From a virus, in the IMG/VR virus record IMGVR_UViG_3300036398_003287, positions 1 through 31,938 of that record: a stretch of 31,938 bases of DNA; one strand, 5' to 3'. The notes under the pieces are model-generated. The model saw nothing but the letters and a program-made list of their open reading frames with translations. It made no database searches and was not told where the DNA came from. Below, piece by piece: positions 1-10,560 of the stretch. The number at the start of each line of letters is the position of its first letter. Positions within the stretch are counted from its first letter, which is position 1. The position numbers were made by a program, and so were the translations under genes.

Positions 1-187
1 CAAGCCGAATAGCCTTGATGGAAGCGATCCGGTTGTCGGTAGTCATTCCGCCGGTAATGGTCACCGTTCGGTGCTGGTTCACACCCAAAGCAATCTCAAA
101 AGCGTTCACGATCCGCTCGTAAATATCCAGATTGCAGTTAGTCGCAAGATTCATAGCCTCACGAACCGTCAGTTCCAACTTAATCAT
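1..187 (-). CDS. partial hypothetical protein (N-terminus only)
   Basis: The first 62 codons of a leftward gene are present; the rest lies beyond the left edge. It begins MIKLELTVREAMNLATNC and has no stop inside the window. AAAGGA lies 7 nt before the ATG, within the last codons of the upstream gene, whose TGA (189-191) is just before this ATG, so translation is probably coupled. The fragment looks like a helical N-terminus followed by a basic stretch (GVNQHRTVTITGGMTTDNR). No family is recognised. It shares the transcription unit that starts at the promoter near 609-645. Confidence 0.7.
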   Translation of the reverse strand, partial: MIKLELTVREAMNLATNCNLDIYERIVNAFEIALGVNQHRTVTITGGMTTDNRIASIKAIRL

Positions 188-188
188 C

Positions 189-602
189 TCAAATCCTTTC
201 TTCCAAAACGTAAACTTGCTTGCCTTGTGTAATTAAAGTAGCGTATTCGCTATCGTCCCAAATAAACTCGTTGCTATCACTTTCTCGTCGCCAGTGTGGG
301 TCACGAATCGGATTATAGTATACCTTTTCAAGATTGTCAACAGGCAAATCCTTGCGAAGCATCACTTCCTCACACTTTACCCATCCACTAACATCATGCA
401 CACCAGCCTCAAATACCTGTTTAGCCTTATTCGGTCTGTTCCACAATATACAACCCCTCATTTCCAACTGATATTCTTTGGGGTCGTAATAGTATACATC
501 AACAGTTTTTCCACCTTGTTTAACCTTAACTTGCCAATGCATATAATGATCCCCTTGGCTAAGATGGAATCTAACTTCGGCGTGTAGTGGTTTCGGTTTC
601 AT
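189..602 (-). CDS. hypothetical phage protein, possibly leaderless
   Basis: 137 residues starting MKPKPLHAEVRFHLSQGDHY. The frame extends 30 codons further upstream, but that extension covers the promoter, so the start at 602 is preferred. The -10 box (609-614) lies only 6 nt before this ATG, which would give a leaderless mRNA if the sigma70-type promoter is used. An internal ATG at 542 with AAGGGG 8 nt upstream is an alternative start. The pattern HYMHWQVK...VYYYDPKEY...MRGCILWNRPNKAKQVFEAG resembles small uncharacterised phage proteins; this is recollection of a family type, not a search. Function unknown. It is first in its unit and is followed directly by the partial gene at the left edge. 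Confidence 0.65.
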   Translation of the reverse strand: MKPKPLHAEVRFHLSQGDHYMHWQVKVKQGGKTVDVYYYDPKEYQLEMRGCILWNRPNKAKQVFEAGVHDVSGWVKCEEVMLRKDLPVDNLEKVYYNPIRDPHWRRESDSNEFIWDDSEYATLITQGKQVYVLEERI

Positions 603-608
603 ACTTAT

Positions 609-646
609 ACTATACCTTATCGGCCAAATCTTGTCAAGTCCTTTAG
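609..646 (-). promoter_or_regulatory. promoter P1, interleaved sigma70 and sigma28-type (register A)
   Basis: Read on the minus strand. Sigma70-type: TTGACA (632-637), 17 bp, TATAGT (609-614). Sigma28-type: TAAAG (TAAA at 642-645), 17 bp, GCCGATAA (617-624). The GCCGATAA is far from the TTGACA here, yet its distance to TAAA is kept, which argues that TAAA and GCCGATAA belong together. Confidence 0.75.
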
Positions 647-1038
647 AATTTATTTGTAAAATCTTTCGAGATGCCCATCTGCTCTTGCACATCGCTATCT
701 GTTAGCACGTCCTCGTCCATCATAAAATCCATATCATCAAAAAAGATTTCAATATCAACTTCCCCATTGGGATTAAAAAGCCAAGCAAAATTCATGATCA
801 TAAAATATGCCGTAGCCTGAACCCAAGATTCCACCTCTCCGGAATGCAGTTCGATAGTATTGCGGTTTTGGTAGACATACTCTATGGCAGCCCGCTTAGT
901 ATCGCTGTTCATATTATTCCAAACAGGAATATCAAACTTATTTAGTTCGCTAAACAGACTCCCGTCAACAGACCACTCATTCTTATATGTATTATAAGTT
1001 TCTTCGATCATCCCAACAGCAATAGCACGACACTGCAT
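643..1038 (-). CDS. hypothetical acidic protein, 131 aa
   Basis: The start at 1038 is set by AGGAG 6 nt before the ATG. The protein has an aromatic middle (SWVQATAYFMIMNFAWLF) and a very acidic C-terminal third (DIEIFFDDMDFMMDEDVLTD), with a short basic end. No family is recognised. The stop lies just upstream of the next promoter (P1), leaving no room for a separate terminator. The gene is the second frame after P2, behind a broken small frame (1091-1204). Confidence 0.75.
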   Translation of the reverse strand: MQCRAIAVGMIEETYNTYKNEWSVDGSLFSELNKFDIPVWNNMNSDTKRAAIEYVYQNRNTIELHSGEVESWVQATAYFMIMNFAWLFNPNGEVDIEIFFDDMDFMMDEDVLTDSDVQEQMGISKDFTNKF

Positions 1039-1059
1039 AATATACTCCTATTGTTCACT

Positions 1060-1096
1060 GACTACAGCCACACCAGCCAAATCCGAAGGATTAGGT
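1060..1096 (-). repeat. shared 3'-end hairpin element, copy 1
   Basis: 37 bp with 35 identities to 4192-4228. On the minus strand it reads ACCTAATCC-TTC-GGATTTGG and then a GT-rich tail; the first part folds into an 8-bp stem with one mismatch. In both copies the TAA is an in-frame stop of the preceding small frame, so the element marks a gene 3' end. No U-tract follows, so it is not a classical intrinsic terminator. Confidence 0.6.
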
Positions 1097-1204
1097 CAGA
1101 CAGATAGATTGGGTTATGCCATACTCGGCCTTGCATTTAACCGCGGCTTCTTTGATATCATTCTGCCAACGGCCCTCATCTATCGCCTGTATCTAAGTGT
1201 ACAT
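1091..1204 (-). pseudogene. small frame interrupted by TAG at codon 4 (relic or recoded)
   Basis: ATG at 1204, three codons (M-Y-T), TAG at 1193-1195, then 33 open codons reading IQAIDEGRWQNDIKEAAVKC... to TAA at 1091-1093. The TAA coincides with the stop position in the hairpin element shared with the intact gene at 4223-4390, which supports this as a true coding frame. Either the start has decayed, translation starts at an ATA after the TAG, or TAG is read through. No CUA-anticodon tRNA is visible. The frame is otherwise part of the ~150 nt leader between P2 and the gene starting at 1038. Confidence 0.35.
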
Positions 1205-1237
1205 CTATTATCGGGTCTTGTCAAGAGAATTCTTTAG
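1196..1237 (-). promoter_or_regulatory. promoter P2, interleaved sigma70 and sigma28-type (register A)
   Basis: Minus strand: TTGACA (1219-1224), 17 bp, TACACT (1196-1201). Interleaved: TAAAG (TAAA 1233-1236), 17 bp, CCCGATAA (1208-1215). Drives 1091-1204 and 643-1038. Confidence 0.7.
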
Positions 1238-1250
1238 AAGAAAATTTCAA

Positions 1251-1323
1251 TAGGAGCGGTGGGACTCGAACCCACACTGGAAGGATTTTAAGTCCTTTGA
1301 CTCTGCCATTGGTCTACGCTCCC
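1251..1323 (-). tRNA. tRNA with UAA anticodon (reads UUA, Leu) but short variable loop
   Basis: 73 nt fold as a cloverleaf: acceptor GGGAGCG/CGCTCCT with one G-U pair, discriminator A, anticodon stem AAGGA/TCCTT with loop CTTAAAA (anticodon TAA), T stem GTGGG/CCCAC with loop TTCGAGT. The D arm is weak (3 pairs plus a C-A mismatch). The variable loop is only 5 nt (CCAGT), whereas leucine tRNAs normally have a long variable arm. CCA is not encoded. The anticodon loop sequence is typical of tRNA-Leu(UAA), and UUA is a common codon in the AT-rich phage genes. Charging identity is uncertain. Confidence 0.85.
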
Positions 1324-1333
1324 GAGTCGGTCT

Positions 1334-1374
1334 ATCATACTATGATATTCGTCATTTGTCAACCGATTCTTTAA
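1334..1374 (-). promoter_or_regulatory. promoter P3 of the tRNA
   Basis: Minus strand: TTGACA (1357-1362), 17 bp, TATGAT (1334-1339); the mature tRNA 5' end (1323) is 10 nt past the -10. An upstream TAAAG (TAAA 1370-1373) is present, but the partner is degenerate (GACGAATA), so the sigma28-type half is only partly kept here. Confidence 0.75.
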
Positions 1375-1379
1375 TTTTT

Positions 1380-1463
1380 CCTAAGTCCTTTCGGGATAAC
1401 GACTTACGATGAACGCGGCCCGCCCGATTTGCTCTAAGTGCTTTGGTAATCAGGAGTTACCGA
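1380..1463. repeat. intergenic double-palindrome element R1
   Basis: Two ~29 bp quasi-palindromic units of the CTAAGT...ACTTACG type flank a GC-rich core (ACGCGGCCCGCCCG). It lies between the stop of the Zn-ribbon gene and the tRNA promoter. The right unit overlaps the 3' end of the gene at 1450. Confidence 0.7.
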
Positions 1464-1575
1464 TATACCACCAATGGCATCGTTGGCAAAACAACCAAAT
1501 AATACCATTATGGTCGTATTTCCACACCAGATTATCACACGCGCCACACGGGCAAATATCACTAAGAGTTTTCAT
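1450..1575 (-). CDS. 41-aa zinc-ribbon-like small protein
   Basis: Starts MKTLSDICPCGACDNLVWKY and ends FCQRCHWWYIGNS. Four cysteines in CPCGAC and CQRC pairs about 20 residues apart suggest a single zinc ribbon; zinc binding is inferred. The start at 1575 overlaps the upstream gene by 14 nt. Its stop codon lies in repeat R1. Last gene of a six-gene unit of tiny proteins. Confidence 0.6.
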   Translation of the reverse strand: MKTLSDICPCGACDNLVWKYDHNGIIWLFCQRCHWWYIGNS

Positions 1576-1735
1576 AAACTAACTTCACATACTTGTCCAC
1601 AAGTTCGGATACTGCGATCTCATGAGTAGAAATAAGTTCTTTAACTTGGCTCACATTATGCTTATTTACAGCGGCCATTCTATTTCTGAAAAAACTCAGA
1701 ATATAAACCATAGCCTTATCTCTATCCTCAGTCAT
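1562..1735 (-). CDS. 57-aa hypothetical helical protein
   Basis: Start MTEDRDKAMVYILSFFRNRM at 1735, because GAGGG lies 4 nt upstream and the ATG overlaps the TGA of the preceding gene by 8 nt; the longer frame to 1831 would lie inside that gene. Predominantly helical, ending VDKYVKLVYENS. Ends TAG TGA, a double stop. Function unknown. Confidence 0.6.
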   Translation of the reverse strand: MTEDRDKAMVYILSFFRNRMAAVNKHNVSQVKELISTHEIAVSELVDKYVKLVYENS

Positions 1736-2045
1736 ACAACCCTCTAGTATATTCTTCTGGAATAATTGGACACCAACTCTTAGCCCGTTCCTCATCGTAT
1801 GGAAGCCAGAACGGAGCATCACAAGCGTCACAAGTCCACGGTTTGGCTTGGTTGGTAAAAACGTGCTGGCAAATCTCTATCTCTTTATCTACAACCTTTT
1901 CATTATTTTCATTATAATAGTATGTTTCAATCTTGCGATCTGGATGATAAGAATAGTGACCAATCCCTATACCAATATTGGGACCAAAGTAATAAACCCT
2001 CTGCCCAACAGCAGGCGGATTCTTATGAGAGTTATTCCACTCCAT
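1728..2045 (-). CDS. hypothetical protein, 105 aa, possible beta fold with Cys pair
   Basis: Begins MEWNNSHKNPPAVGQRVYYF; AAGGAG lies 10 nt upstream. The NPPxxGQRVYYFGP opening followed by Gly-rich strands and a TCDACDAPFWLPYD segment resembles small phage proteins built on a short beta domain, but no named family is claimed. One CxxC plus a C-terminal WCP could bind metal. The downstream gene overlaps its stop. Confidence 0.7.
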   Translation of the reverse strand: MEWNNSHKNPPAVGQRVYYFGPNIGIGIGHYSYHPDRKIETYYYNENNEKVVDKEIEICQHVFTNQAKPWTCDACDAPFWLPYDEERAKSWCPIIPEEYTRGLYD

Positions 2046-2048
2046 TAT

Positions 2049-2273
2049 TTACCTACTCCTTCCAACAATCACACATTTCATACTAATATCACTATCAGTA
2101 TACTTAACACACTCATGAGGTCCATAATACCACTTATCTTCATCGTTCACATTCAATACAATATCCTCAGTTCTCAGGCTAAGGTCATTAAACCCACCCT
2201 CATAACCGAGAGTAAGAACCCGCATATCGGACGGATAGTTCTTCAACTGCTCAATAAGTTCGTTAACGGTCAT
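2049..2273 (-). CDS. 74-aa phage protein, EQLKNYPSDMRV type
   Basis: Begins MTVNELIEQLKNYPSDMRVL; start 2273 is chosen because AGGTGG lies 5 nt upstream and the ATG overlaps the stop of the upstream gene (TAATG). The opening (xELIxxLxxxPxDxxVxxxGYEGG) is a very common N-terminus of small uncharacterised phage proteins. The middle is acidic with aromatic residues. Function unknown. Confidence 0.75.
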   Translation of the reverse strand: MTVNELIEQLKNYPSDMRVLTLGYEGGFNDLSLRTEDIVLNVNDEDKWYYGPHECVKYTDSDISMKCVIVGRSR

Positions 2274-2389
2274 TATTTCCACCTAAAAGTAAATTTAGTA
2301 GCCTCATTATCACAAACGAAAGTGAAGTATGCTAGAAAGAACATGGTCAAAGACGGGAAAAATAGAATTATCTTACGAAAGATTCTCAT
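2273..2389 (-). CDS. 38-aa single-span membrane peptide
   Basis: MRIFRKIILFFPSLTMFFLA then YFTFVCDNEATKFTFRWK. A basic start, one ~20-residue hydrophobic stretch and a polar tail suggest a membrane peptide with the N-terminus inside. Its start lies 3 nt after the TAA of the upstream gene, and its TAA shares two bases with the next ATG. Function unknown. Confidence 0.5.
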   Translation of the reverse strand: MRIFRKIILFFPSLTMFFLAYFTFVCDNEATKFTFRWK

Positions 2390-2391
2390 GC

Positions 2392-2529
2392 TTAGTCCTC
2401 AGTAGCATCATCAATATACCACTCGTATCCTAGTTCGTCAATAGTATCTTCTAATACTTCAATAATATCATCAGCATCTTCAGAATCTAGATCAATTCCC
2501 GGTATATCAAAAACAACATAAACCTTCAT
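2392..2529 (-). CDS. 45-aa very acidic small protein
   Basis: MKVYVVFDIPGIDLDSEDAD...ending EWYIDDATED, with about one third Asp/Glu and a likely strand-helix layout. AAGGAAAATGAA precedes the ATG. First clear gene of the six-gene train 2529-1450. Function unknown; small acidic phage proteins often act as inhibitors or DNA mimics, but nothing here proves that. Confidence 0.55.
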   Translation of the reverse strand: MKVYVVFDIPGIDLDSEDADDIIEVLEDTIDELGYEWYIDDATED

Positions 2530-2544
2530 TTCATTTTCCTTGTA

Positions 2545-2754
2545 TTAAAACCAGCGGAACCATTTACGATCCGGTTCCTATAGCCCACACCTATAACTTT
2601 CAAGGTTTGGAAACCGCCCACGCTGCTTCACTGCTTTCGGGTACCTAATATCAGGCAGTTTATCAGAGGCAACGGTTACTGGTTGTATTGGTCGTGGTGA
2701 GGATGCTATCCCCCATAGATTGGCATTACTATACAACGTATAAGCCCGTTGTCA
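2545..2754 (-). other. leader region with a long frame lacking a good start and broken by TAG
   Basis: No clean gene is seen between 2530 and 2727. On the minus strand one frame is open from the TGA in the -35 of P4 to TAG at 2578-2580. It reads protein-like text (WGIASSPRPIQPVTVASDKL, then RYPKAVKQRGRFPNLESYRC) and after the TAG continues EPDRKWFRWF to TAA at 2545-2547. It has no ATG. GGAACC/GGTTCC around 2556-2578 forms a short hairpin. This may be a decayed gene or a structured leader of the downstream train. Confidence 0.3.
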
Positions 2755-2755
2755 A
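2728..2755 (-). promoter_or_regulatory. promoter P4, sigma70-type only
   Basis: Minus strand: TTGACA (2750-2755), 16 bp, TATAGT (2728-2733). Unlike most promoters of this array it has no TAAA/GCCGATAA pair. Likely drives the gene train 2529-1450. Confidence 0.65.
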
Positions 2756-2845
2756 CCCCGGCGATTGCTTCGCTGAACGGGAGGTTTATCGTAATGGCTT
2801 ATCCCAACCTAGTCCCTGAGCATGGACCCACGAAAGTTTGTATTG

Positions 2846-2944
2846 TTAGGACCGATTGTAGAAGACGTTTCCTAGGACATCAATTACCGCTTTTACCGGC
2901 TACTCGGCCCGACATAACCAACAAGCGTTTGCTTGTTCTTTCAT
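2846..2944 (-). other. possible 14-aa CWLC peptide, or 32-aa protein if TAG is read through
   Basis: Downstream of P5 the minus strand reads MKEQANACWLCRAE, TAG (2900-2902), then PVKAVIDVLGNVFYNRS and TAA (2846-2848). A perfect 7-bp hairpin (AACAAGC-AAAC-GCTTGTT) covers the start of the frame. No Shine-Dalgarno site. The stretch 2756-2945 otherwise shows no gene. Confidence 0.25.
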
Positions 2945-2945
2945 C

Positions 2946-2987
2946 ATTCTACTATCTATTATCGGCTTGTCAAGAGGGTTTCTTTAA
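2946..2987 (-). promoter_or_regulatory. promoter P5, interleaved sigma70 and sigma28-type (register A)
   Basis: Minus strand: TTGACA (2968-2973), 16 bp, TAGAAT (2946-2951); TAAAG (TAAA 2983-2986), 16 bp, GCCGATAA (2959-2966). The -35 overlaps the stop codon of the PEP-CTERM gene. Confidence 0.7.
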
Positions 2988-3269
2988 AAATTTTTTGATG
3001 ACGAAAAACGCAACTAACCCAAAGCCCAACAGTACAAGAGATGAAGGCTCTGGCACAGGATTGATAGGGGTATGATCCTTAAGAACCGCATTATAAAACA
3101 AATACAAGGCTTGACCACCATCATTATAAACATACAAAGAGTCGTACTCGGTTTGTATGAGTCTATCTGTAGTAAAATCAGAATATAGACTATATGGGTC
3201 TGAATACCAAGTACCGGTGTTTATCCACACCCCATTCTCATACCCGTATCCATACAGAGGATAATCCAT
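2970..3269 (-). CDS. PEP-CTERM-like C-terminally anchored small protein
   Basis: 99 residues beginning MDYPLYGYGYENGVWINTGT. The C-terminus has the PEP-CTERM layout: VPEPSS, a hydrophobic helix (LVLLGFGLVAFFVI) and a basic end (KKFLKK). In bacteria this tail is recognised by exosortase/EpsH sorting systems. The frame extends to 3305, but that covers promoter P6; the -10 (3277-3282) lies 7 nt before the ATG at 3269, so the mRNA may be leaderless. No N-terminal signal peptide is seen, which is unusual for a PEP-CTERM protein; it could instead be a tail-anchored membrane protein. The middle is Tyr/Asp/Ser-rich. Confidence 0.7.
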   Translation of the reverse strand: MDYPLYGYGYENGVWINTGTWYSDPYSLYSDFTTDRLIQTEYDSLYVYNDGGQALYLFYNAVLKDHTPINPVPEPSSLVLLGFGLVAFFVIKKFLKKPS

Positions 3270-3276
3270 GCTTGCC

Positions 3277-3316
3277 ATTATATAATGTATCGTCGGTTTT
3301 GTCAATCACTCTTTAA
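3277..3316 (-). promoter_or_regulatory. promoter P6, interleaved sigma70 and sigma28-type (register A)
   Basis: Minus strand: TTGACA (3300-3305), 17 bp, TATAAT (3277-3282), the best -10 in the region; TAAAG (TAAA 3312-3315), 17 bp, GACGATAC (3287-3294). Confidence 0.75.
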
Positions 3317-3330
3317 AAAATATTTTTGTG

Positions 3331-3418
3331 ATGTAAGTCGTTGTGATATAAGCACTTGCGACGAGCGGGGCAGCGCAAACTCGCCCTAAGTCCCCTTGGG
3401 CAAAGAACTTAGAGCGAG
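3331..3418. repeat. intergenic double-palindrome element R2
   Basis: Left unit GTAAGTCGTTG..ATAAGCACTTGCG, GC core (GCGGGGCAGCGC), right unit CCTAAGT...ACTTAGAGCG. Lies between the stop of the Api92-like gene and promoter P6. Confidence 0.75.
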
Positions 3419-3424
3419 CCGCGT

Positions 3425-3907
3425 TCAGATACCGGCTTCTTCTGGATCGTCTTTGAAGAATTCAGCCATATCAAACTCATTCCACAACGCAACAGGAATC
3501 ATATCCTTACTAGGATAGTCCACATAATTATCAGCACCATTATCCCAAATACCGCAAAAGGCAATACCCGGTTCCCAATAACTAGCCTTCACATTATATC
3601 CCAACTCTACCAGTTTGTCATACAAGCCAACAGGAGGACTCCACGCACTATCAAAAGAACAATTTACTTCATTACCAACCCTAGTGGCCTTCAGCCCATG
3701 TCTCTCCTCTTTATCTGTACCAATATCCGCCCCAATATCCCACTTAGTTCCCCAATTATCTATTTGCCAACTATACCAATCTTCTCCTTCTGGCAGAGGC
3801 AAAAACTCCGCACAGGCCTTACCTAAATTATAGGCTTTCTCAAAACGATCAACCATAGCAGAATCAGTATGCTCAACAGTCAATTTGTTCAAACACCAAT
3901 TTGGCAT
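3425..3907 (-). CDS. Api92-like / YubB ferredoxin-like-domain protein
   Basis: 160 residues opening MPNWCLNKLTVEHTD, the hallmark MPNWCxNxLTV start of the Api92/YubB (DUF1281-type) phage and plasmid family, with the further family features FLPLPEG, NWGTKWD and FDSAWSPP. The family has a ferredoxin-like alpha/beta fold without a known metal centre or reaction, and is typical of mobile elements. AAGGA lies 9 nt before the ATG, in the 11-nt gap after the upstream gene. Role in the phage unknown. Confidence 0.85.
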   Translation of the reverse strand: MPNWCLNKLTVEHTDSAMVDRFEKAYNLGKACAEFLPLPEGEDWYSWQIDNWGTKWDIGADIGTDKEERHGLKATRVGNEVNCSFDSAWSPPVGLYDKLVELGYNVKASYWEPGIAFCGIWDNGADNYVDYPSKDMIPVALWNEFDMAEFFKDDPEEAGI

Positions 3908-3918
3908 TGCCGGTATCC

Positions 3919-4125
3919 TTAGTTATTGGAAGGGGTCACAGAGTTCTCACACTTTTCAATAATTTTGCTCATAATAAACTTATGAAACAGACTCTCTACT
4001 GCAAAAATAGAATCGGCTCTAACAGAAACAGGTACATCCCTCATTTCAGTAATACCAACAATAGTTTCGGTAAAAGCACTAATATCCTGAGCAATCAGAT
4101 CATACTCTGTAGATACGGCTTGCAT
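3919..4125 (-). CDS. 68-aa hypothetical protein
   Basis: Begins MQAVSTEYDLIAQDISAFTE and is mainly helical, with a C-terminal FHKFIMSKIIEKCENS segment. A strong AAAGGAGG lies 5 nt before the ATG. Co-transcribed with the Api92-like gene from P7. No family recognised. Confidence 0.7.
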   Translation of the reverse strand: MQAVSTEYDLIAQDISAFTETIVGITEMRDVPVSVRADSIFAVESLFHKFIMSKIIEKCENSVTPSNN

Positions 4126-4144
4126 AGCAGCCTCCTTTTGATAC

Positions 4145-4188
4145 AGTTTACACTAACTATTATCGACTGTCAAGACCACATAACTTTT
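4145..4188 (-). promoter_or_regulatory. promoter P7, sigma70 plus imperfect sigma28-type
   Basis: Minus strand: TTGACA (4168-4173), TAAACT (4145-4150), spacer 17; GTCGATAA (4160-4167) with AAAAG instead of TAAAG at the expected place about 17 bp upstream. Confidence 0.65.
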
Positions 4189-4191
4189 GCT

Positions 4192-4228
4192 GACTACACC
4201 CACACCGCCCAAATCCGAAGGATTAGGT
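4192..4228 (-). repeat. shared 3'-end hairpin element, copy 2
   Basis: Near-identical to 1060-1096. Here CACACC on one side and GGTGTG on the other extend the stem. The TAA stop of the 55-aa gene is inside it (4223-4225). Position between a gene end and P7 suggests a 3'-end processing or stability structure. Confidence 0.6.
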
Positions 4229-4390
4229 GTGACCAACTAACAGACTTCTCTCTATCCTTGTGTTAGACCCGAATTTTTCAAACGCTTTTCGTAATGCGTC
4301 AATTTCACTTGGAGATATGACGTATCCTACAAACTTATTATCTTTGAACACTATCCAAGATTGTCCAATGCTATGGTCTTGTGTTTGCAT
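4223..4390 (-). CDS. 55-aa hypothetical protein, possibly leaderless
   Basis: MQTQDHSIGQSWIVFKDNKF, then GYVISPSEIDALRKAFEKFG, ending VGHT. A short strand pair followed by a helix. The -10 of P8 (4397-4402) is only 6 nt before the ATG and no Shine-Dalgarno site is present, so a leaderless or very short leader mRNA is likely. Function unknown. Confidence 0.6.
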   Translation of the reverse strand: MQTQDHSIGQSWIVFKDNKFVGYVISPSEIDALRKAFEKFGSNTRIERSLLVGHT

Positions 4391-4396
4391 GTTTTG

Positions 4397-4439
4397 ATTC
4401 TACAAGTTATTATCGGTTTGTCAATAGAGAAAACTTTAT
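4397..4439 (-). promoter_or_regulatory. promoter P8, interleaved sigma70 and sigma28-type (register A)
   Basis: Minus strand: TTGACA (4419-4424), 16 bp, TAGAAT (4397-4402); TAAAGTTT (4431-4438), exactly the sigma28 -35 consensus, 17 bp from TAAA to ACCGATAA (4410-4417). The clearest single example of the dual arrangement. Confidence 0.8.
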
Positions 4440-4442
4440 TTG

Positions 4443-4528
4443 TCGTAAAGCATTTGGAGACAAGTACTTATGTCGAATTTTGCGGCGCCCCTCGGCCCTA
4501 AGTGCTGCCGTAGCAACAACTTAGGGTG
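4443..4528. repeat. intergenic double-palindrome element R3
   Basis: Left unit CGTAAAGCATTTG...ACTTATG, core TTGCGGCGCCCCTCGG, right unit CCTAAGTGC...ACTTAGGG. Between the membrane-protein gene stop (4559) and P8. Confidence 0.75.
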
Positions 4529-4558
4529 AGGGTTTCACCGATTGGCGAAGAAGACAGT

Positions 4559-4999
4559 TTAGATAAGGTGAGCCAGACCCGTAGCAAAGAGAGCCTGAGC
4601 CCCAACCGGCTTGCGGCACTTTTCAGTACGCTCCGCATAGAAGTTGCGAACCGTACCATTGGGCATTTCGCAAGTCACAAGGTGGCGAGTACGCTGAAAC
4701 TCGGGATCATTCGCACGATAGCGACTGCGAGCATTCAGCCTACGAATAGAGTAGTCATCCAGAGTGTGGACTTCCACAACCTTTGCCAGATAACGCTCCG
4801 GCTCGCCCTGCAACGGCTGCTTATAGATGAAGTTGTAGATTTCACCCGGCTTAGCAGACGCGAGCGTACCACGAACACCACCATAAACAGCATAGGCAAG
4901 AGCAGCAATCAGAACAGCAGTAACACCAGCCAGAATACCACCAAACAGAAGAACATCGTTCATAAAAACCCTTTCAGTTAGAAAACCCTCAATCAACAT
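4559..4999 (-). CDS. membrane-anchored hypothetical protein
   Basis: Up to 146 residues. Two starts compete: the ATG at 4999 is 6 nt after the -10 of P9 (leaderless type), and the ATG at 4963 (MNDVLLFGGILAGV) has AAAGGG 5 nt upstream; the second is the better ribosome site and gives 134 residues. One N-terminal transmembrane helix (LLFGGILAGVTAVLIAALAY) is followed by a basic soluble domain with FIYKQPLQGEPERYLAKVVE and Arg-rich text. GC content is higher than in neighbouring genes. Function unknown. Confidence 0.75.
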   Translation of the reverse strand: MLIEGFLTERVFMNDVLLFGGILAGVTAVLIAALAYAVYGGVRGTLASAKPGEIYNFIYKQPLQGEPERYLAKVVEVHTLDDYSIRRLNARSRYRANDPEFQRTRHLVTCEMPNGTVRNFYAERTEKCRKPVGAQALFATGLAHLI

Positions 5000-5005
5000 A
5001 CCACA

Positions 5006-5047
5006 AGTCTACACTATGTATCGACTCTTGTCAAGCCTCAACATTAG
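5006..5047 (-). promoter_or_regulatory. promoter P9, sigma70 plus imperfect sigma28-type
   Basis: Minus strand: TTGACA (5029-5034), 17 bp, TAGACT (5006-5011); GTCGATAC (5018-5025) with TAATG in place of TAAAG 17 bp upstream. The -35 contains the TGA stop of the preceding gene (5031-5033). Confidence 0.7.
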
Positions 5048-5267
5048 AAAAATTTTCGGTCCAAAACTCTTTGAGTTCGTCCAGATCAATTCCGCTATCG
5101 TTCCACGCCACATTATCTAAAGTTTCAATAGAGCCCATCTCTCGCATTTGTTCTACGAAATCCGAATAATCGTCACAACTTCTAGCAAGGTTATATAAAC
5201 CCTCGTCGTTTGCAATCCAGAGTTGAACGTTCCATGTCTGATAGTTTTTGCAGCCGTTGTAAGTCAT
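5031..5267 (-). CDS. DUF7249-like small phage protein
   Basis: 78 residues from MTYNGCKNYQTWNVQLWIAN; start 5267 is set by AAAGGG 6 nt upstream. The NYxTWNVxLWxxNDEGLY opening is characteristic of a widespread phage family (I recall it as DUF7249) of unknown function. C-terminal half is acidic and helical (DLDELKEFWTENF). Single-gene unit driven by P10. Confidence 0.75.
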   Translation of the reverse strand: MTYNGCKNYQTWNVQLWIANDEGLYNLARSCDDYSDFVEQMREMGSIETLDNVAWNDSGIDLDELKEFWTENFSNVEA

Positions 5268-5292
5268 CTTTTTCCCTTTCGTGTGTGCCGTA

Positions 5293-5334
5293 ATCATACC
5301 ATATAGATCGGCAAATGCAAGAGGAAATCTTTAG
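5293..5334 (-). promoter_or_regulatory. promoter P10, weak sigma70 with good sigma28-type
   Basis: Minus strand: TTGCAT (5315-5320), 16 bp, TATGAT (5293-5298); TAAAG (TAAA 5330-5333), 17 bp, GCCGATCT (5305-5312). The sigma70 -35 is poor while the TAAA/GCCGAT pair is intact. Confidence 0.65.
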
Positions 5335-5348
5335 AAAAATTTTTTAGA

Positions 5349-5431
5349 CGTAAAGCGTTGTAGCATAAGTAGTTACGTCGAGGCCGGCGGCGCCCGCTCG
5401 CCCTAAGTGCTTATGCACAAAGGGTTTGCGG
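5349..5431. repeat. intergenic double-palindrome element R4
   Basis: Left unit CGTAAAGCGTTGTAGCATAA...GTTACGTCGA, core GGCCGGCGGCGCCCGCTCG, right unit CCTAAGTGCTTATGC. Between the stop at 5439 and P10. Confidence 0.8.
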
Positions 5432-5438
5432 AGAGCTT

Positions 5439-5669
5439 TTATTCGAAGTCTACGAAAATTACTTGATTGTAGCCGCGAGGCTTAATCTTGAAACTATCGC
5501 CATAATCTTCGGTTTCTGCCTTTACGCCCGTAAACCCGGCCAATTCCTTAGCCTTCTTCACAATGCTACGCTGCGAAGCGTCACGCTTGGGAATAAACTC
5601 GTAACGGTTTACCCAGCCGTAGTTAGCCTCGCCACCAAAAAGATCCGTATGGGTCACAACGCACTTCAT
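5439..5669 (-). CDS. 76-aa hypothetical protein
   Basis: Begins MKCVVTHTDLFGGEANYGWV; GGAG lies 7 nt upstream of the ATG at 5669. The LFGGEANYGWVNRYEF...RSIVKKAKELAGFTG layout is a beta-hairpin followed by a helix and a basic strand region; similar small proteins occur in other phages. Second gene of a two-gene unit from P11. Confidence 0.75.
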   Translation of the reverse strand: MKCVVTHTDLFGGEANYGWVNRYEFIPKRDASQRSIVKKAKELAGFTGVKAETEDYGDSFKIKPRGYNQVIFVDFE

Positions 5670-5680
5670 GCTCAATCTCC

Positions 5681-5884
5681 TTACAGGCTCACGGTTTCAG
5701 AACGAAAAGAACACACACTTAGGCCACTAGCAGCCACAACAGTATCCAACATATCACCGATCAGTTCTGCTCTTTCCATAGCAGTTGACGTATCGCGATC
5801 AGCAACTTCCAACACAAACTCTTGGTCGATTGACTGTTCGCCATTCTCGTTTTCAACCACAATATCAAAGAAGCGGTACTTCAT
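5681..5884 (-). CDS. 67-aa hypothetical protein
   Basis: Begins MKYRFFDIVVENENGEQSID; GAGG lies 5 nt before the ATG. The pattern DREVADRD...AMERAELIGDML suggests two strands then a helix. No family recognised. Precedes the 76-aa gene with an 11-nt gap. Confidence 0.75.
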   Translation of the reverse strand: MKYRFFDIVVENENGEQSIDQEFVLEVADRDTSTAMERAELIGDMLDTVVAASGLSVCSFRSETVSL

Positions 5885-5910
5885 ATGATCCTCTCTTTCA
5901 GATATAGACT

Positions 5911-5952
5911 AGTTTATACTACTAAGATCGGCTTGTCAAGCGGTTATCTTGA
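5911..5952 (-). promoter_or_regulatory. promoter P11, interleaved sigma70 and sigma28-type (register A)
   Basis: Minus strand: TTGACA (5934-5939), 17 bp, TAAACT (5911-5916); GCCGATCT (5925-5932) with TCAAG about 16 bp upstream. An A/T tract (AAAAAAATTTTTT) lies farther upstream, like an UP element. Confidence 0.7.
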
Positions 5953-5966
5953 AAAAATTTTTTTGA

Positions 5967-6051
5967 TGCAAACCCTTATGAGATAACGAGTTAGGACAAA
6001 TTTTCGCCGCCCGCCTCGTCCTAAGTCCTTTGGTGGTAAGGATTTGTGTCG
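5967..6051. repeat. intergenic double-palindrome element R5
   Basis: Left unit GCAAACCCTTATGAGATAAC..GTTAGGAC, core TTTTCGCCGCCCGCCTCG, right unit CCTAAGTCC...ATTTGTGTC. Between the stop at 6054 and P11. Confidence 0.7.
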
Positions 6052-6053
6052 AA

Positions 6054-6308
6054 TTATTCTCCGCCGTAATAATCTTCGCCTAGCGGGGTGTCATCACCAT
6101 AATATCCATAATCCTCATCGGTTCCCCATCCTGCGGAAGCGAGGCCACTCTCATGATCCCCATCCATACTATCATCATACGAATCATCCCAACTGTTCTC
6201 CAATTCATCCGCGTCAACTTCCCCGTAGTGAAAATCGTTGTAATCGTCGTAGTTCATATCGTCCTCGCAAGAGTTATCGGGATCATAGCACGGGTCAGGA
6301 TGGCTCAT
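6054..6308 (-). CDS. 84-aa highly acidic protein, MSxPDPxYD type
   Basis: Begins MSHPDPCYDPDNSCEDDMNY and is almost entirely Asp/Glu/Tyr/Gly/Ser, with repeated DDYxDxxY text and no hydrophobic core. The opening is shared with the 28-aa protein at 9674-9760 (MSCPDPLYD...). GAGG lies 8 nt before the ATG. Likely intrinsically disordered; a DNA-mimic or Ca2+-binding role is only a guess. Confidence 0.7.
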   Translation of the reverse strand: MSHPDPCYDPDNSCEDDMNYDDYNDFHYGEVDADELENSWDDSYDDSMDGDHESGLASAGWGTDEDYGYYGDDTPLGEDYYGGE

Positions 6309-6330
6309 TTCTTTTTCCTCTTTACTAGTG

Positions 6331-6367
6331 TTATCGGGATTCTATCCTAAAAACTTTAGGCTGTCAA
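6331..6367 (-). promoter_or_regulatory. promoter P12, interleaved sigma70 and sigma28-type (register B)
   Basis: Minus strand order is TTGACA (6362-6367), TAAAGTTT (6351-6358), TAGAAT (6339-6344), CCCGATAA (6331-6338). TAAA to CCCGATAA spacing is 16; TTGACA to TAGAAT is 17. The sigma28-type -10 abuts the sigma70 -10 on its downstream side, the reverse of register A. Confidence 0.75.
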
Positions 6368-6370
6368 GCC

Positions 6371-6568
6371 CTATTCCACAATCCACGTTTCGCCGTTTTC
6401 ATCCATCATCTCGACAGGGGCAAAATCATCCACACAACCCACAACATCTGCCCAATCCCAAAAGTTGACTTCCACGCCGGGGTCGTCAATAGGCTCGACC
6501 ATAGGCTCAATCGTACCGTCTTGGGCCATTTGATCCAGAATCAAGTTGATTTCTTCGAAAGAATACAT
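6371..6568 (-). CDS. 65-aa acidic hypothetical protein
   Basis: Begins MYSFEEINLILDQMAQDGTI and ends ENGETWIVE. The frame is open to 6817, but that extension would cover promoter P13 and repeat R6; GGAAGTCAAAA before the ATG at 6568 supports the short form. Helical N-terminus, then Pro/Asp-rich text with FWDWADVVG. Function unknown. Confidence 0.7.
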   Translation of the reverse strand: MYSFEEINLILDQMAQDGTIEPMVEPIDDPGVEVNFWDWADVVGCVDDFAPVEMMDENGETWIVE

Positions 6569-6605
6569 TTTTGACTTCCTTTGGGGTTTCACTTGTGATA
6601 CTCGA

Positions 6606-6647
6606 ATTATACATAGTATATCGGCCAAGTCAATAGCGTATCTATAA
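6606..6647 (-). promoter_or_regulatory. promoter P13, interleaved sigma70 and sigma28-type (register A)
   Basis: Minus strand: TTGACT (6628-6633), 16 bp, TATAAT (6606-6611); GCCGATAT (6618-6625) with TATAG in place of TAAAG 17 bp upstream. Confidence 0.65.
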
Positions 6648-6670
6648 AAAATCCAAAAAAAATTTTGTTG

Positions 6671-6756
6671 ATGTAAAGTGTTGCAGTATAAGGAGTTACG
6701 ACGCGGCGGGCGGCGCGGCCTCGCCCTAAGTCGTTTAGCGACAAGGCTTTGCGTCA
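6671..6756. repeat. intergenic double-palindrome element R6
   Basis: Left unit TGTAAAGTGTTGCAGTATAA..GTTACGACGC, core GGCGGGCGGCGCGGCCTCG, right unit CCTAAGTCG...TTTGCGTC. The stop codon of the 103-aa gene lies at its right edge. Confidence 0.75.
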
Positions 6757-7065
6757 ATTTCCTACGACCATGCCATCCATAAAAGGATAGGATTTGTCGT
6801 TGATTTTCACAAACCATTCAAAATTCTTTTGATACACATAACGTGGGCTATACTGGTTGATACGATCCTTAGTGGTCAGAGTTTGCCAGCCGCCACTATT
6901 CAGCGTATAGGTACCATCTTCGTGAATCTTGACCACATAGGTACTGTGCAGCATAATCCCAACCGAGCCATCATGCAGAATTTCCGCATAGGTATTATTA
7001 CCAACCTTGCGACGAGTAGCATTACGCTTGCCGCGAACCATAGTAACCGCTTCGGCGTGTGTCAT
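6754..7065 (-). CDS. 103-aa conserved phage protein, NTYxE...TLNSGGWQT type
   Basis: The core is RRKVGNNTYAEI...HSTYVVKIHEDGTYTLNSGG, then WQTLTTKDRINQYSP. This combination is a familiar uncharacterised phage domain that is all-beta by pattern (alternating strands ending in a TTKDRIN turn). AAGGG lies 9 nt upstream of the ATG at 7065. It sits alone between P14 and R6. Function unknown. Confidence 0.8.
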   Translation of the reverse strand: MTHAEAVTMVRGKRNATRRKVGNNTYAEILHDGSVGIMLHSTYVVKIHEDGTYTLNSGGWQTLTTKDRINQYSPRYVYQKNFEWFVKINDKSYPFMDGMVVGN

Positions 7066-7100
7066 TTTGTTTTCCCTTAGTGTTTATTGATACGATTAGG

Positions 7101-7128
7101 ATTTTACTAGATAAACTTTATTTGTCAA
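7101..7128 (-). promoter_or_regulatory. promoter P14, sigma70-type with partial sigma28-like -35
   Basis: Minus strand: TTGACA (7123-7128), 16 bp, TAAAAT (7101-7106). TAAAGTTT sits inside the spacer as in register B, but no GCCGATAA follows. The TGA stop of the upstream gene (7125-7127) is within the -35. Confidence 0.65.
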
Positions 7129-7412
7129 GCACTATTTCTACGCATATCATTATCCTGACCAAGAGCGGAGAAGTTGACCATATCGGTACTTGAAGAAAGA
7201 TTTTCGATCTGCTCCAGAACCTCAGCAACACCAGAAAAGTCTAGCCAGCCGATAACATTATTCGTGACAGGAGTGGTATAGTCGAGATCGCCATCTTTAC
7301 CAATAACAGCAACCTCGAAAAGCCCATTCTTTCCACCATATGACCCAAGATGAGAAACCACACTAGCCCCATAACCATTATCAAACTTATAGATTTTTTG
7401 ATAGTTAGACAT
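7125..7412 (-). CDS. 95-aa conserved phage protein, FDNGYGASVV type
   Basis: Begins MSNYQKIYKFDNGYGASVVS; the FDNGYGASV...HLGSYGG..GLFEVAV...TPVTNNVIGWLDF string is a recurring small phage family, likely all-beta with a C-terminal helix, of unknown function. AAGGA lies 9 nt upstream of the ATG. The ATG overlaps the TAA of the upstream gene. Confidence 0.8.
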   Translation of the reverse strand: MSNYQKIYKFDNGYGASVVSHLGSYGGKNGLFEVAVIGKDGDLDYTTPVTNNVIGWLDFSGVAEVLEQIENLSSSTDMVNFSALGQDNDMRRNSA

Positions 7413-7545
7413 TTTTCTTTTCCTTCATTTCCTTATAAAGTTTTTCCAGAAACTTGACTTGAGCCAAAGCACGGCATGTTTCCTGCTTCATTCTGGCTTC
7501 TGTTTTCTGAAATCCGCTTACTGGCTTCTTCTTCGTTTTCATCAT
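7405..7545 (-). CDS. 46-aa basic helical small protein
   Basis: Begins MMKTKKKPVSGFQKTEARMK and ends YKEMKEKKNV. Very Lys-rich and helical. AGGAG lies 4 nt before the first ATG (7545) and 7 nt before the second (7542); either could be used. The longer frame to 7590 covers the promoter. Translationally coupled to the 95-aa gene by overlap. Confidence 0.6.
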   Translation of the reverse strand: MMKTKKKPVSGFQKTEARMKQETCRALAQVKFLEKLYKEMKEKKNV

Positions 7546-7561
7546 CTTTCTCCTACACTCG

Positions 7562-7603
7562 ATTGTATAGTATAGATCGGCAAGAGTCAAGCATAATCTT
7601 TAG
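7562..7603 (-). promoter_or_regulatory. promoter P15, interleaved sigma70 and sigma28-type (register A)
   Basis: Minus strand: TTGACT (7585-7590), 17 bp, TACAAT (7562-7567); TAAAG (TAAA 7599-7602), 17 bp, GCCGATCT (7574-7581). Confidence 0.75.
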
Positions 7604-7620
7604 AGGATTTTTATTTTGTT

Positions 7621-7705
7621 CGTAAAGTATTGCCGCATAAGGAGTTACGTCGAGCGGGGCGGCGCCGGCTCGCTCTAAGTCTTTTAGCAGTAAGGGTTTA
7701 GGTTC
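7621..7705. repeat. intergenic double-palindrome element R7
   Basis: Left unit CGTAAAGTATTGCCGCATAA..GTTACGTCGA, core GCGGGGCGGCGCCGGCTCG, right unit TCTAAGTC...TTTAGG. Between the stop at 7730 and P15. Confidence 0.8.
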
Positions 7706-7729
7706 AGTTTTTTGTTCAGTGGTGAACGA

Positions 7730-8071
7730 TTATTCATCGCTCCCCTTGAACGCAAACGGTGAAACTTCCTCATCACAAGCCAGAATCGCACCATATTGGT
7801 GAGCAAGAGCCTCAACCCGTTCCTTTGAACCCGGCTTTCCAGCCTTTACGATCATGGTATCCTCACCACCCACAAATCGCGGATCGGACTTCTCTTTCTT
7901 CACTTTGCCAAGGTTGCGAAGTGCCTTGCGGTTGAACTTCAAAACCTTTTCACTCTTGATCGGCCCATACTCACCATCCGCAAGAGAGGGTTGGTGGGGA
8001 ATCGCAATCCCGAGAAAGCACATACGAGCCTGTTTCTTAGCGTTTTCGATAATCTCAAATTTCTGTTTCAT
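7730..8071 (-). CDS. 113-aa hypothetical basic protein
   Basis: Begins MKQKFEIIENAKKQARMCFL; AAAGGG lies 5 nt before the ATG at 8071. The centre is Lys-rich (KVLKFNRKALRNLGKVKKEK) and the C-terminal part reads as strand-turn-helix with KAGKPGSKERVEALAHQYGA. No family recognised. Single-gene unit. Confidence 0.7.
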   Translation of the reverse strand: MKQKFEIIENAKKQARMCFLGIAIPHQPSLADGEYGPIKSEKVLKFNRKALRNLGKVKKEKSDPRFVGGEDTMIVKAGKPGSKERVEALAHQYGAILACDEEVSPFAFKGSDE

Positions 8072-8094
8072 GTTTTCCCTTTCGTGTTGGTCTG

Positions 8095-8124
8095 ATTCTA
8101 GCAAAACTCTTTGGTGAGTGTCAA
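8095..8124 (-). promoter_or_regulatory. promoter P16, sigma70-type only
   Basis: Minus strand: TTGACA (8119-8124), 18 bp, TAGAAT (8095-8100). No CCGATA partner. Confidence 0.65.
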
Positions 8125-8127
8125 GCC

Positions 8128-8316
8128 CTACTTTGAATAATTGTAGGCATCCAAACCCAACTTGCGACGAATCACGCGAATCGTTTCCAGATCCTCAATG
8201 AGCATCTTGGTCAGATTCTCACTTACTCCGCTTTCCACCAGAGAAGCCATATTTTGCTCACTGGTTTTCAGCAGAGCAGCCACAACGATTTCTTCACTCA
8301 CAGTCAACTTTTCCAT
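8128..8316 (-). CDS. 62-aa helical hypothetical protein
   Basis: Begins MEKLTVSEEIVVAALLKTSE and is amphipathic helical throughout, with a basic RVIRRKLGLDAYNYSK end. GAGAG precedes the ATG. Stop TAG just upstream of P16. Function unknown. Confidence 0.7.
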   Translation of the reverse strand: MEKLTVSEEIVVAALLKTSEQNMASLVESGVSENLTKMLIEDLETIRVIRRKLGLDAYNYSK

Positions 8317-8343
8317 CTTTCACTCTCTCTTTCTGTACCAACT

Positions 8344-8372
8344 ATTCTACCAAACTTTTCCCGCCTCGTCAA
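8344..8372 (-). promoter_or_regulatory. promoter P17, sigma70-type only
   Basis: Minus strand: TTGACG (8367-8372), 17 bp, TAGAAT (8344-8349). AAAAGTTT lies in the spacer, but no CCGATA follows. Confidence 0.6.
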
Positions 8373-8392
8373 CCCCTATTTCGGGGGAAGCC

Positions 8393-8599
8393 TTAGATTT
8401 TCCAGTGTGAAAACTTCAGCGTGAACACCTGATTAGGATACTTGCTAGCGATATACGCTTGTGCAGTTTCCTTCCGATTGTCGGAAGCCGAAACACCCTG
8501 AACAACCGTACCGTTGATAATCACACTCCACACACGACGCTTACGAATCTTCGGGAGGCTAGCAATCAAACCGTTCACACTCATAACCTTTTCCATCAT
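8393..8599 (-). CDS. 68-aa hypothetical protein
   Basis: Begins MMEKVMSVNGLIASLPKIRK; GAGAG lies upstream of two adjacent ATGs (8599 and 8596). The body (VWSVIINGTVVQGVSASDNR...AYIASKYPNQVFTLKFSHW) looks like a compact alpha/beta domain that may bind nucleic acid, judged only from its basic N-terminal part. Function unknown. Confidence 0.7.
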   Translation of the reverse strand: MMEKVMSVNGLIASLPKIRKRRVWSVIINGTVVQGVSASDNRKETAQAYIASKYPNQVFTLKFSHWKI

Positions 8600-8626
8600 C
8601 AACTCTCTCTTTCTTTCTTATGCTGA

Positions 8627-8668
8627 ATTATACCTTAATTATCGTCAAAAGTCAAATGGAATCTTTAG
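8627..8668 (-). promoter_or_regulatory. promoter P18, interleaved sigma70 and sigma28-type (register A)
   Basis: Minus strand: TTGACT (8650-8655), 17 bp, TATAAT (8627-8632); TAAAG (TAAA 8664-8667), 17 bp, GACGATAA (8639-8646). Confidence 0.75.
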
Positions 8669-8684
8669 AAAATTCTCGGATTTT

Positions 8685-8716
8685 CCCTAAGTCCTTATTT
8701 GGCCTAGAGTTGCGCC
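8685..8716. repeat. truncated copy of the double-palindrome element (R8')
   Basis: A single unit CCTAAGTCCTTATTTGGCCT..GTTGCGCC without its partner, 70 bp from full copy R8. The stretch between them (8717-8769) shows no gene; it includes a short frame ending TIPSVHCAT that is not convincing. Confidence 0.5.
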
Positions 8717-8769
8717 GACCCGCTTCGTTTAGGTAGCACAGTGGACAGATGGTATCGTGAGAAATCGCT

Positions 8770-8854
8770 CGTAAAGCGTTGCTATCAAACAACTTACGGC
8801 AAATTTTGCGGCGCCGGCTCGCCCTAAGTCTTTATGTGTCAACCACTTAGGTTA
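8770..8854. repeat. intergenic double-palindrome element R8
   Basis: Left unit CGTAAAGCGTTGCTATCAAA..ACTTACGG, core TTGCGGCGCCGGCTCGC, right unit CCTAAGTCTTTATG...ACTTAGG. Directly follows the stop of the 25-aa gene. Confidence 0.8.
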
Positions 8855-8929
8855 AGAGTTAATCACCCAAGCAACCACACAACCGAAAGCAAAGGATACA
8901 GAAAGCACTACCTTATCGTAAAGATTCAT
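8852..8929 (-). CDS. 25-aa single-span membrane peptide
   Basis: MNLYDKVVLSVSFAFGCVVA then WVINS: almost wholly one hydrophobic helix. AAGGA lies 8 nt upstream, and the ATG overlaps the TAA of the preceding gene (TAATG). Fourth gene of the unit from P19. Confidence 0.45.
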   Translation of the reverse strand: MNLYDKVVLSVSFAFGCVVAWVINS

Positions 8930-9036
8930 TATTTCTTCCTTACTGGAAAAACAAGATCACAAACAAACCAAGAACAACCAATACCAACAACAAATCCCAC
9001 ACCCATCCACATCCAATCTATATTTAGATCGACCAT
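8929..9036 (-). CDS. 35-aa single-span membrane peptide
   Basis: Starts MVDLNIDWMWMGVGFVVGIG, continues CSWFVCDLVF and ends basic (PVRKK). One Gly/Val-rich hydrophobic helix with a basic C-terminus. AAAGGA lies 8 nt before the ATG. Coupled to the 25-aa peptide; such pairs sometimes act in membrane or lysis functions, which is a guess here. Confidence 0.5.
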   Translation of the reverse strand: MVDLNIDWMWMGVGFVVGIGCSWFVCDLVFPVRKK

Positions 9037-9051
9037 CCCTGATTCCTTTCT

Positions 9052-9258
9052 TTAATCCTTTTTATATCCTACGAGCCACCTAGTACCATCCTCATCCGTA
9101 CGAATAAATCCATCGGATTCAAACCCTGCGTCACTCAATTCCTTTTCGGCCATTCGCTTCACTATAGTATCACCTACAGCCAGGACAGCACAAACCACGC
9201 CCATGATAACTATACCAACCATAAACAGGAAAATCATCGTGATTAGTTCAGGACTCAT
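9052..9258 (-). CDS. 68-aa membrane protein with cytoplasmic tail
   Basis: Begins MSPELITMIFLFMVGIVIMG; one transmembrane helix continues to about residue 28, followed by an acidic/basic soluble tail (ELSDAGFESDGFIRTDEDGT). The start at 9258 is chosen because ATGA overlaps the stop of the upstream gene. Function unknown. Confidence 0.65.
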   Translation of the reverse strand: MSPELITMIFLFMVGIVIMGVVCAVLAVGDTIVKRMAEKELSDAGFESDGFIRTDEDGTRWLVGYKKD

Positions 9259-9446
9259 TTGGTAAGATTCCAAGTATAGACGTTATCGTTCACCTTTACG
9301 CATCTTACATCAGAGATCGGCAAATGTCCAGTACGAACATTAGAGCAATCTGGAAAGAACTCTCGCACAATCTTATATGCTTCAAGCGTATTCTTAGCAC
9401 GAACGAAACCAACAGCCGAACCATTCTGATAAACTTCCAAAGTCAT
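9255..9446 (-). CDS. 63-aa hypothetical protein
   Basis: Begins MTLEVYQNGSAVGFVRAKNT; GAGG lies about 9 nt before the ATG at 9446. The longer frame to 9470 would start at the predicted transcription start, leaving no ribosome site. Compact alpha/beta pattern with a helix AYKIVREFF. First of the four-gene unit from P19. Confidence 0.7.
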   Translation of the reverse strand: MTLEVYQNGSAVGFVRAKNTLEAYKIVREFFPDCSNVRTGHLPISDVRCVKVNDNVYTWNLTK

Positions 9447-9476
9447 CTTCTTTTCCTCTTTCTTTCTCATACCATT

Positions 9477-9505
9477 ATTCTACACTACTAATATCGGCTT
9501 GTCAA
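9477..9505 (-). promoter_or_regulatory. promoter P19, sigma70-type with CCGATA only
   Basis: Minus strand: TTGACA (9500-9505), 17 bp, TAGAAT (9477-9482), with GCCGATAT (9491-9498) in the spacer. No TAAAG at the expected upstream position, so the sigma28-type half is incomplete. Confidence 0.75.
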
Positions 9506-9544
9506 GCCTAGCCACATGAATTTTTTCAGATTTTTTATTTTGCG

Positions 9545-9628
9545 TTGTAAGTCTATATGTAGCATATACTTACGTCGAATTTCGCGGCGCCGGCTCGCCC
9601 TAAGTGCTTACGCAGCAACTACTTACGT
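9545..9628. repeat. intergenic double-palindrome element R9
   Basis: Left unit GTAAGTCTATATGTAGCATA..ACTTACG (itself a good hairpin, ATATG-TAG-CATAT inside GTAAGT/ACTTAC), core TTCGCGGCGCCGGCTCGC, right unit CCTAAGTGCTTACGC...ACTTACG. The right unit supplies the TAG stop of the 30-aa gene. Confidence 0.85.
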
Positions 9629-9711
9629 TTACTATTCATATCCTTAAGAATAGCAACAATCATAGCCAATTCGTTACTCGTCTGATTCGGATTCATCATA
9701 TTCCCTTTCAT
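9619..9711 (-). CDS. 30-aa hypothetical peptide overlapping the 28-aa gene
   Basis: MKGNMMNPNQTSNELAMIVA then ILKDMNSKRK. AAAGGG lies close before the internal MM, so the real start may be at the second or third Met. Overlaps the acidic 28-aa frame in another frame. Stop is in repeat R9. Confidence 0.4.
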   Translation of the reverse strand: MKGNMMNPNQTSNELAMIVAILKDMNSKRK

Positions 9712-9760
9712 CTTCTTCGAGCCAATCAGCATAATCATACAGTGGGTCAGGGCAACTCAT
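9674..9760 (-). CDS. 28-aa acidic peptide, MSxPDPxYD type
   Basis: MSCPDPLYDYADWLEEDERE then YDESESDE. Shares the MSxPDPxYD opening and acidic nature with the 84-aa protein at 6054-6308, so the two are likely paralogues, this one much shorter. GGAG lies about 7 nt before the ATG. Confidence 0.5.
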   Translation of the reverse strand: MSCPDPLYDYADWLEEDEREYDESESDE

Positions 9761-9781
9761 CTCTTTTCTCCTTTACTTCTT

Positions 9782-9990: not shown

Positions 9991-10016
9991 TATAGCCTCT
10001 CTTTCTTATACATACA

Positions 10017-10045: not shown

Positions 10046-10059
10046 AGATATTTATTGGT

Positions 10060-10334: not shown

Positions 10335-10359
10335 TTGTTTCCCTAAGTTATCTTATGCC

Positions 10360-10534: not shown

Positions 10535-10560
10535 TTGTTTTCCTTTTCTCTTGTGTTCCT

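Follow-up and report, generated by a model that had tools for sequence, protein, structure and literature searches.

The window, the whole 31,938-nt stretch of DNA analysed here (IMGVR_UViG_3300036398_003287), is assigned to an uncultured aquatic phage: IMG/VR files it as a virus, and it has matches to terminase, portal and tail fibre. This confirms the phage context in which an earlier, sequence-only reading had placed the gene studied below. The terminase (positions 21832-23859, plus strand) belongs to a large uncultured phage group with contigs of up to 238 kb; an IMG/VR scan returned 126 relatives, of which 80 were kept, and no phage record matched it above 60% identity. Positions 1-10800 form an early arm on the minus strand with many TTGACA-N16-18-TAnnnT promoters, many of which precede small genes; for five genes of this arm a leaderless transcript is predicted, with the ATG 6-7 nt past the -10 box, and the layout is common to related phages. 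On the plus strand, tandem Cys-rich paralogues (12425-17136) start with MPC[EQ]QF.xNNPPLN..SGPYN, and those scanned with Pfam and NCBIfam gave no match.

The ORF at 2970-3269 (minus strand) encodes 99 aa, comprising an acidic, Tyr-rich N-tail of 71 aa and a PEP-CTERM-type tail. This tail is composed of a VPEPS motif (3042-3056), a hydrophobic helix of 15 residues, SLVLLGFGLVAFFVI (2997-3041; mean Kyte-Doolittle value 2.73), and a basic end, KKFLKKPS (2973-2996; net charge +4), all on the minus strand, and the C-terminus VPEPSSLVLLGFGLVAFFVIKKFLKKPS thus has the layout VPEPSS-hydrophobic helix-KKFLKKPS. A sigma-70-like promoter, TTGACA-17-TATAAT, precedes the gene at 3277-3305 (minus strand), and further 5' an intergenic hairpin read from the sequence (3380-3418, minus strand) separates it from 3425-3907. 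Copies of an intergenic repeat lie near this hairpin; the family, with units of ~75-130 bp, has many copies in the window (3316-3392, 5302-5427, 6658-6753, 7571-7699 and others) and in the related contig G001, some with a hairpin nearby. The next promoter, TTGACA-16-TAGAAT (2946-2973, minus strand), overlaps the stop codon of the gene, and directly behind it lies a mini-ORF (2944-2843, minus strand). Its counterpart in the related contig L241 (about 3428-3528) encodes 33 aa with a CWLC motif, and at the position of a CAG codon in L241 the window copy carries an in-frame TAG.

Relatives, start codon and coding pattern

IMG/VR scans with the window protein found a homologue that is 82% identical on a 153.6-kb contig (G001/L001). 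Another relative, on a 20.7-kb contig (G002/L002), is cut by the contig end, and a third, 54% identical on a 100.5-kb contig (G082/L241), was found by a DNA pattern that combined VPEPS with a terminal KK. In-frame scanning for this pattern gave 16 stretches, among which only L241, L242 and G001/L247 look like genuine PEP-CTERM ends. A final scan with the L241-extended alignment brought no further members, and the family stands at four member sequences, one of them incomplete. The window protein and its 31-aa tail had no tblastn match in 50,697 phage records, a search of cellular genomes with the protein alignment gave 25 pattern stretches and no relative, and a PDB profile search returned nothing. 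A match to phrog_31620 was discarded as chance: only the G001 member hit it (E 0.0045), again alone among 27 records.

Between the window and G001, dN is 0.088 and dS 0.423 (dN/dS ~0.21) and indels are in-frame only; between the window and L002, 3 of 178 bases differ, all at third positions. In-frame indels and this low ratio among the relatives on three other phage contigs mark the ORF, judged by its coding pattern, as a real gene. Its reading frame is open as far back as a TTG at 3305, and the earlier choice of start holds up: translation probably begins with the ATG at 3269, since the alternative ATG at 3278 sits within the -10 box and the L241 homologue begins at the equivalent residue, with no possible start 5' of it. 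Only GAT-AGA-CTT, three non-start codons, separates the L241 ATG from the preceding in-frame stop, so no leader can be encoded there.

Each of the four phages has a sigma-70-like promoter from which transcription is expected to start at the ATG itself. The layout of G001 is that of the window; the spacer is 16 in G002, and L241 differs in its spacer, in its -10 box (TAGGAT) and in the ATG, which lies 6 nt past this box. Since the window ATG begins 7 nt past the -10 box, a leaderless mRNA is expected, and no Shine-Dalgarno site is present at the gene. Other early-arm ATGs (9470, 4999, 4390 and 602) also lie 6-7 nt past a promoter, so that a lack of 5' leaders seems to be usual for early mRNAs in this phage group.

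A PEP-CTERM-type tail without a signal peptide

According to an estimate in PMC1569441, 97% of PEP-CTERM members carry an N-terminal signal peptide. The window protein does not: averaged over 15 residues, Kyte-Doolittle hydropathy peaks at 0.34-0.38 in the N-tails, and this maximum of 0.38, with the lack of an upstream start in L241, agrees with the earlier claim that a signal peptide is absent. The sorting tail proposed at the other end is equally borne out by the TIGRFAM model scan suggested for it. From the ATG at 3269 the protein scores 24.9 bits with TIGR02595 (cut-off 16) and 28.1 bits with PF07589 (cut-off 20.7), and the TIGR02595 match runs to residue 93 of 99, at the extreme C-terminus. 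The G001 homologue reaches 24.7 and 24.5 bits with the two models (cut-offs 16 and 20.7); the L241 homologue is under the cut-off of both, its helix lacks the GxG, and its record searched with TIGR02595 gave no match. The composition of the N-tail resembles that of PEP-CTERM bodies, which have few basic residues, very little Cys and more Thr, Ser and Asn (PMC1569441, section 5), in all but Ser: K+R amount to 2.8%, Cys is absent, Thr is 8.5%, Asn 7.0% and Ser, not raised, 5.6%; Thr is 3.1% in L241. We file the protein as a PEP-CTERM variant and not as a regular member, since it has the tail and fails in the signal peptide.

Could the ORF be untranslated, or the tail match be a chance match of a hydrophobic C-terminus? 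Such a reading would accord with the missing Shine-Dalgarno site and with the use of a single short model of 24 positions, TIGR02595, which in control genomes gives matches at E<=1 in 7 of 14 and above the cut-off in 2. However, a six-frame search of the window has the tail of this gene as its sole TIGR02595 match at E<=1 (5.4e-7), and among the 80 terminase-family records only G001 matches (0 of the 79 others, many of which are fragments). PEP occurs in 4 of 72 hydrophobic-plus-basic ORF ends in four phage contigs, three of these being the homologues and the fourth an unrelated G001 end with LPEPK. Together with the in-frame indels, the dN/dS and the third-position differences given above, this makes the reading very improbable, and the codon pattern has already largely refuted it. 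A home-made PEP-CTERM profile also places the window tail top among 5,040 ORF ends, taken from the window and from DNA of related phages, at 30.8 bits versus 5.7 for the best unrelated end, with a bias toward the window because the profile was built from tails picked by LLGxG, which the window fits too; G001 and L241 score 7.0 and 4.8 bits.

The comparison with L241 points to selection on the PEP motif itself and is the strongest sign of it. PVPEPS is identical in the window, G001 and L241, and between the window and L241 all six of its codons differ, synonymously. Identity between these two is 38/62 in the body and 5/23 in the helix and tail, versus 6/6 in PVPEPS (Fisher p=0.001 for motif versus helix and tail), so that residues kept through changed codons amid diverged surroundings suggest that the motif is what is retained. 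The failure of L241 and its record with the models is a counterpoint to this suggestion.

Distribution in phage contigs and the question of the host

A family profile finds the gene in 4 of 27 chosen records. An early-arm marker gene is present in 10 of the 27, and the PEP gene in 3 of these 10; the early regions of 6 of the other 7 marker-bearing records have promoters and leaderless genes and no such protein. The gene is accessory and belongs to one clade.

The earlier view that such tails are rare in phages stands for the terminase family of the window, where none of the 79 others matched, but not for IMG/VR contigs at large, where PEP-CTERM ORFs are common. The pattern VPEPx4LLGxG has at least 123 matches in at least 120 stretches, and among the 123 matches listed 107 are C-terminal PEP-CTERM-type ORF ends; out-of-frame background patterns gave 18 and 5 matches. 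After 16 of the listed matches were dropped as not C-terminal or shorter than 60 aa and 12 for an open 5' end, 95 complete ORFs were left, counted on the contigs as filed with viral origin presumed at each spot, and 91 of these 95 have a signal-like segment by our own hydropathy rule, which is not SignalP. Among the four signal-less ORFs, L126 is convincing, the N-terminus of L217 looks disrupted, L192 is doubtful, and L215 was rejected, having no convincing PEP-CTERM end.

The L126 gene (672-1214 of its contig, minus strand) encodes a signal-less protein of 180 aa that scores 28.8 bits with PF07589 and 17.6 bits with TIGR02595. An AGGAG site lies 5' of its ATG, and this ATG overlaps the stop codon of a primase-helicase gene by one base, its A being the final base of that stop; the ten best matches of this primase among cultured or sequenced phages are 48-52% identical over 92-100% of the length. 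The L126 protein had no match when compared with phages and shows by eye no resemblance to the window protein, and no PEP end is seen in the ORFs listed after the primase of three phage relatives. From its sequence and position, L126 makes a convincing candidate for a second, independent signal-less PEP-CTERM gene, here in a phage replication cluster. In the parts of the open-licence literature covered, PMC11980579, PMC12078418, PMC7293339 and PMC5312081 among them, no report of phage-encoded PEP-CTERM proteins was found; PMC12642866, as far as covered, concerns Microcystis genes.

The window record has no exosortase. A related capsid gene occurs in only four metagenome bins of cellular contigs (Alphaproteobacteria, Flavobacteriales, Chitinophagia and SAR202), and exosortase matched in 0 of these 4 bins of conflicting phyla; because of this conflict no host is assigned. 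Plasmid and phage matches were uninformative in this respect. The subtilase of the window (11030-12274, minus strand), with a similar one in G001, has an N-terminal ESLENRSLL that presumably recalls planctomycete surface proteins, and NCBIfam found no planctomycete-type surface domain in it.

Possible use of the exosortase pathway and known systems

The three full-length members have N-tails with net charges of -7, -7 and -6 and C-tails of +4 each, and the N-tails are 64-75 residues long, acidic and Tyr-rich. By the positive-inside rule, this acidic N-tail and basic C-tail predict the N-out/C-in topology of a processed PEP-CTERM protein; the PEP motif would then face the periplasm, as PMC1569441 proposes for PEP-CTERM proteins. 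Two AlphaFold runs (mean pLDDT 50.8 and 52.9) gave no confident N-domain, and helix 77-95 was the sole part modelled confidently (block pLDDT 85 and 70).

The single C-terminal helix and the lack of a signal peptide are also what a plain C-tail-anchored inner-membrane protein would have, its PEP being a helix cap or left over from a host tail once captured, with no part for exosortase. The free drift of the helix, the scores of L241 below both models and the capsid-bearing bins without an exosortase match all accord with such an anchor. We nevertheless regard it as unlikely, for PVPEPS stayed intact although all six of its codons changed synonymously and the residues around it diverged, and the charges favour N-out where usual tail anchors are N-in.

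The reading we prefer, at a probability of roughly 0.4, is that this small membrane protein, made early by the phage, makes use of the exosortase pathway of its host without a signal peptide. The C-terminal helix would serve as a reverse signal anchor and, once synthesised, the acidic N-tail of ~70 residues would cross the inner membrane, as do the N-tails of proteins inserted with the help of YidC/Sec, for example Pf3 coat and ProW. The resulting N-out/C-in protein would present its PEP motif at the periplasmic face and may there engage exosortase, most probably as cargo, which would be released or displayed on the envelope and could there hide receptors or keep out other phages; competition with host exosortase substrates is a second choice under the same mechanism. 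In favour of this reading are the model scores of the window and G001, the retained PVPEPS, the charges and composition of the N-tail, the L241 start that leaves no room for a leader, and the L126 gene; against it are the L241 scores and missing GxG, the capsid-bearing bins without an exosortase match, the low AlphaFold confidence of the N-domain and the small number of members. Taking all versions together, the sequence evidence puts engagement of exosortase a little short of an even chance, and engagement specifically as cargo is rather doubtful.

Cargo seems likelier than a mere decoy, since conservation is stronger in the N-domain. As a dedicated inhibitor or decoy, a role that the earlier reading had suggested next to that of a tail-anchored protein, the membrane-held PEP tail would occupy the enzyme and block the sorting of host surface proteins during infection. 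An early-type promoter, a takeover-like gene neighbourhood and a tail kept in its motif and not in its helix would suit this role, yet the N-domain is constrained more than the tail (dN/dS of 0.15, versus 0.43 in the helix, and 38/62 versus 5/23 identical to L241). Such constraint implies that the N-domain has a job of its own and argues against a pure decoy needing only the tail, a role that we hold to be quite improbable.

More generally, and as a tentative idea well below even odds, phages may repeatedly have made signal-less PEP-CTERM proteins that reach exosortase by their own C-terminal helix, bypassing signal-peptide export, with the window family and the unrelated L126 as two independent origins and with cargo or inhibitors as products. 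Exosortase/PEP-CTERM sorting is widespread in environmental bacteria, and substrate delivery is known mainly by signal peptide. If the idea is true, exosortase is a pathway exploited by phages, and a signal-less phage protein that keeps the motif is a minimal probe of what exosortase requires.

Among known systems, PEP-CTERM/exosortase (EpsH) sorting shares with the window protein the PEP motif, helix and basic end at the extreme C-terminus, a Cys-free body low in basic residues, and scores above cut-off (window and G001). Unlike PEP-CTERM proteins, the window protein comes from an early phage gene and lacks a signal peptide, and no exosortase gene is known near it or in its host. Its acidic N-tail, single helix, positive C-side and lack of a signal peptide are those of the N-out/C-in YidC/Sec proteins, whereas its tail of ~70 residues and exosortase-type motif set it apart from Pf3 coat and ProW, and its insertion route is a predicted one. 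Classical C-tail-anchored proteins likewise have a single C-terminal helix and no signal peptide, but the topology predicted here from charge is the opposite, and the PEP motif is conserved in the window family. Phages also place surface lipoproteins for superinfection exclusion, such as T5 Llp, phi80 Cor and TP-J34 Ltp. These are small early proteins, and the window protein would similarly borrow an envelope-sorting route of the host; they use a signal peptide and lipobox, and exclusion by the window protein is hypothetical.
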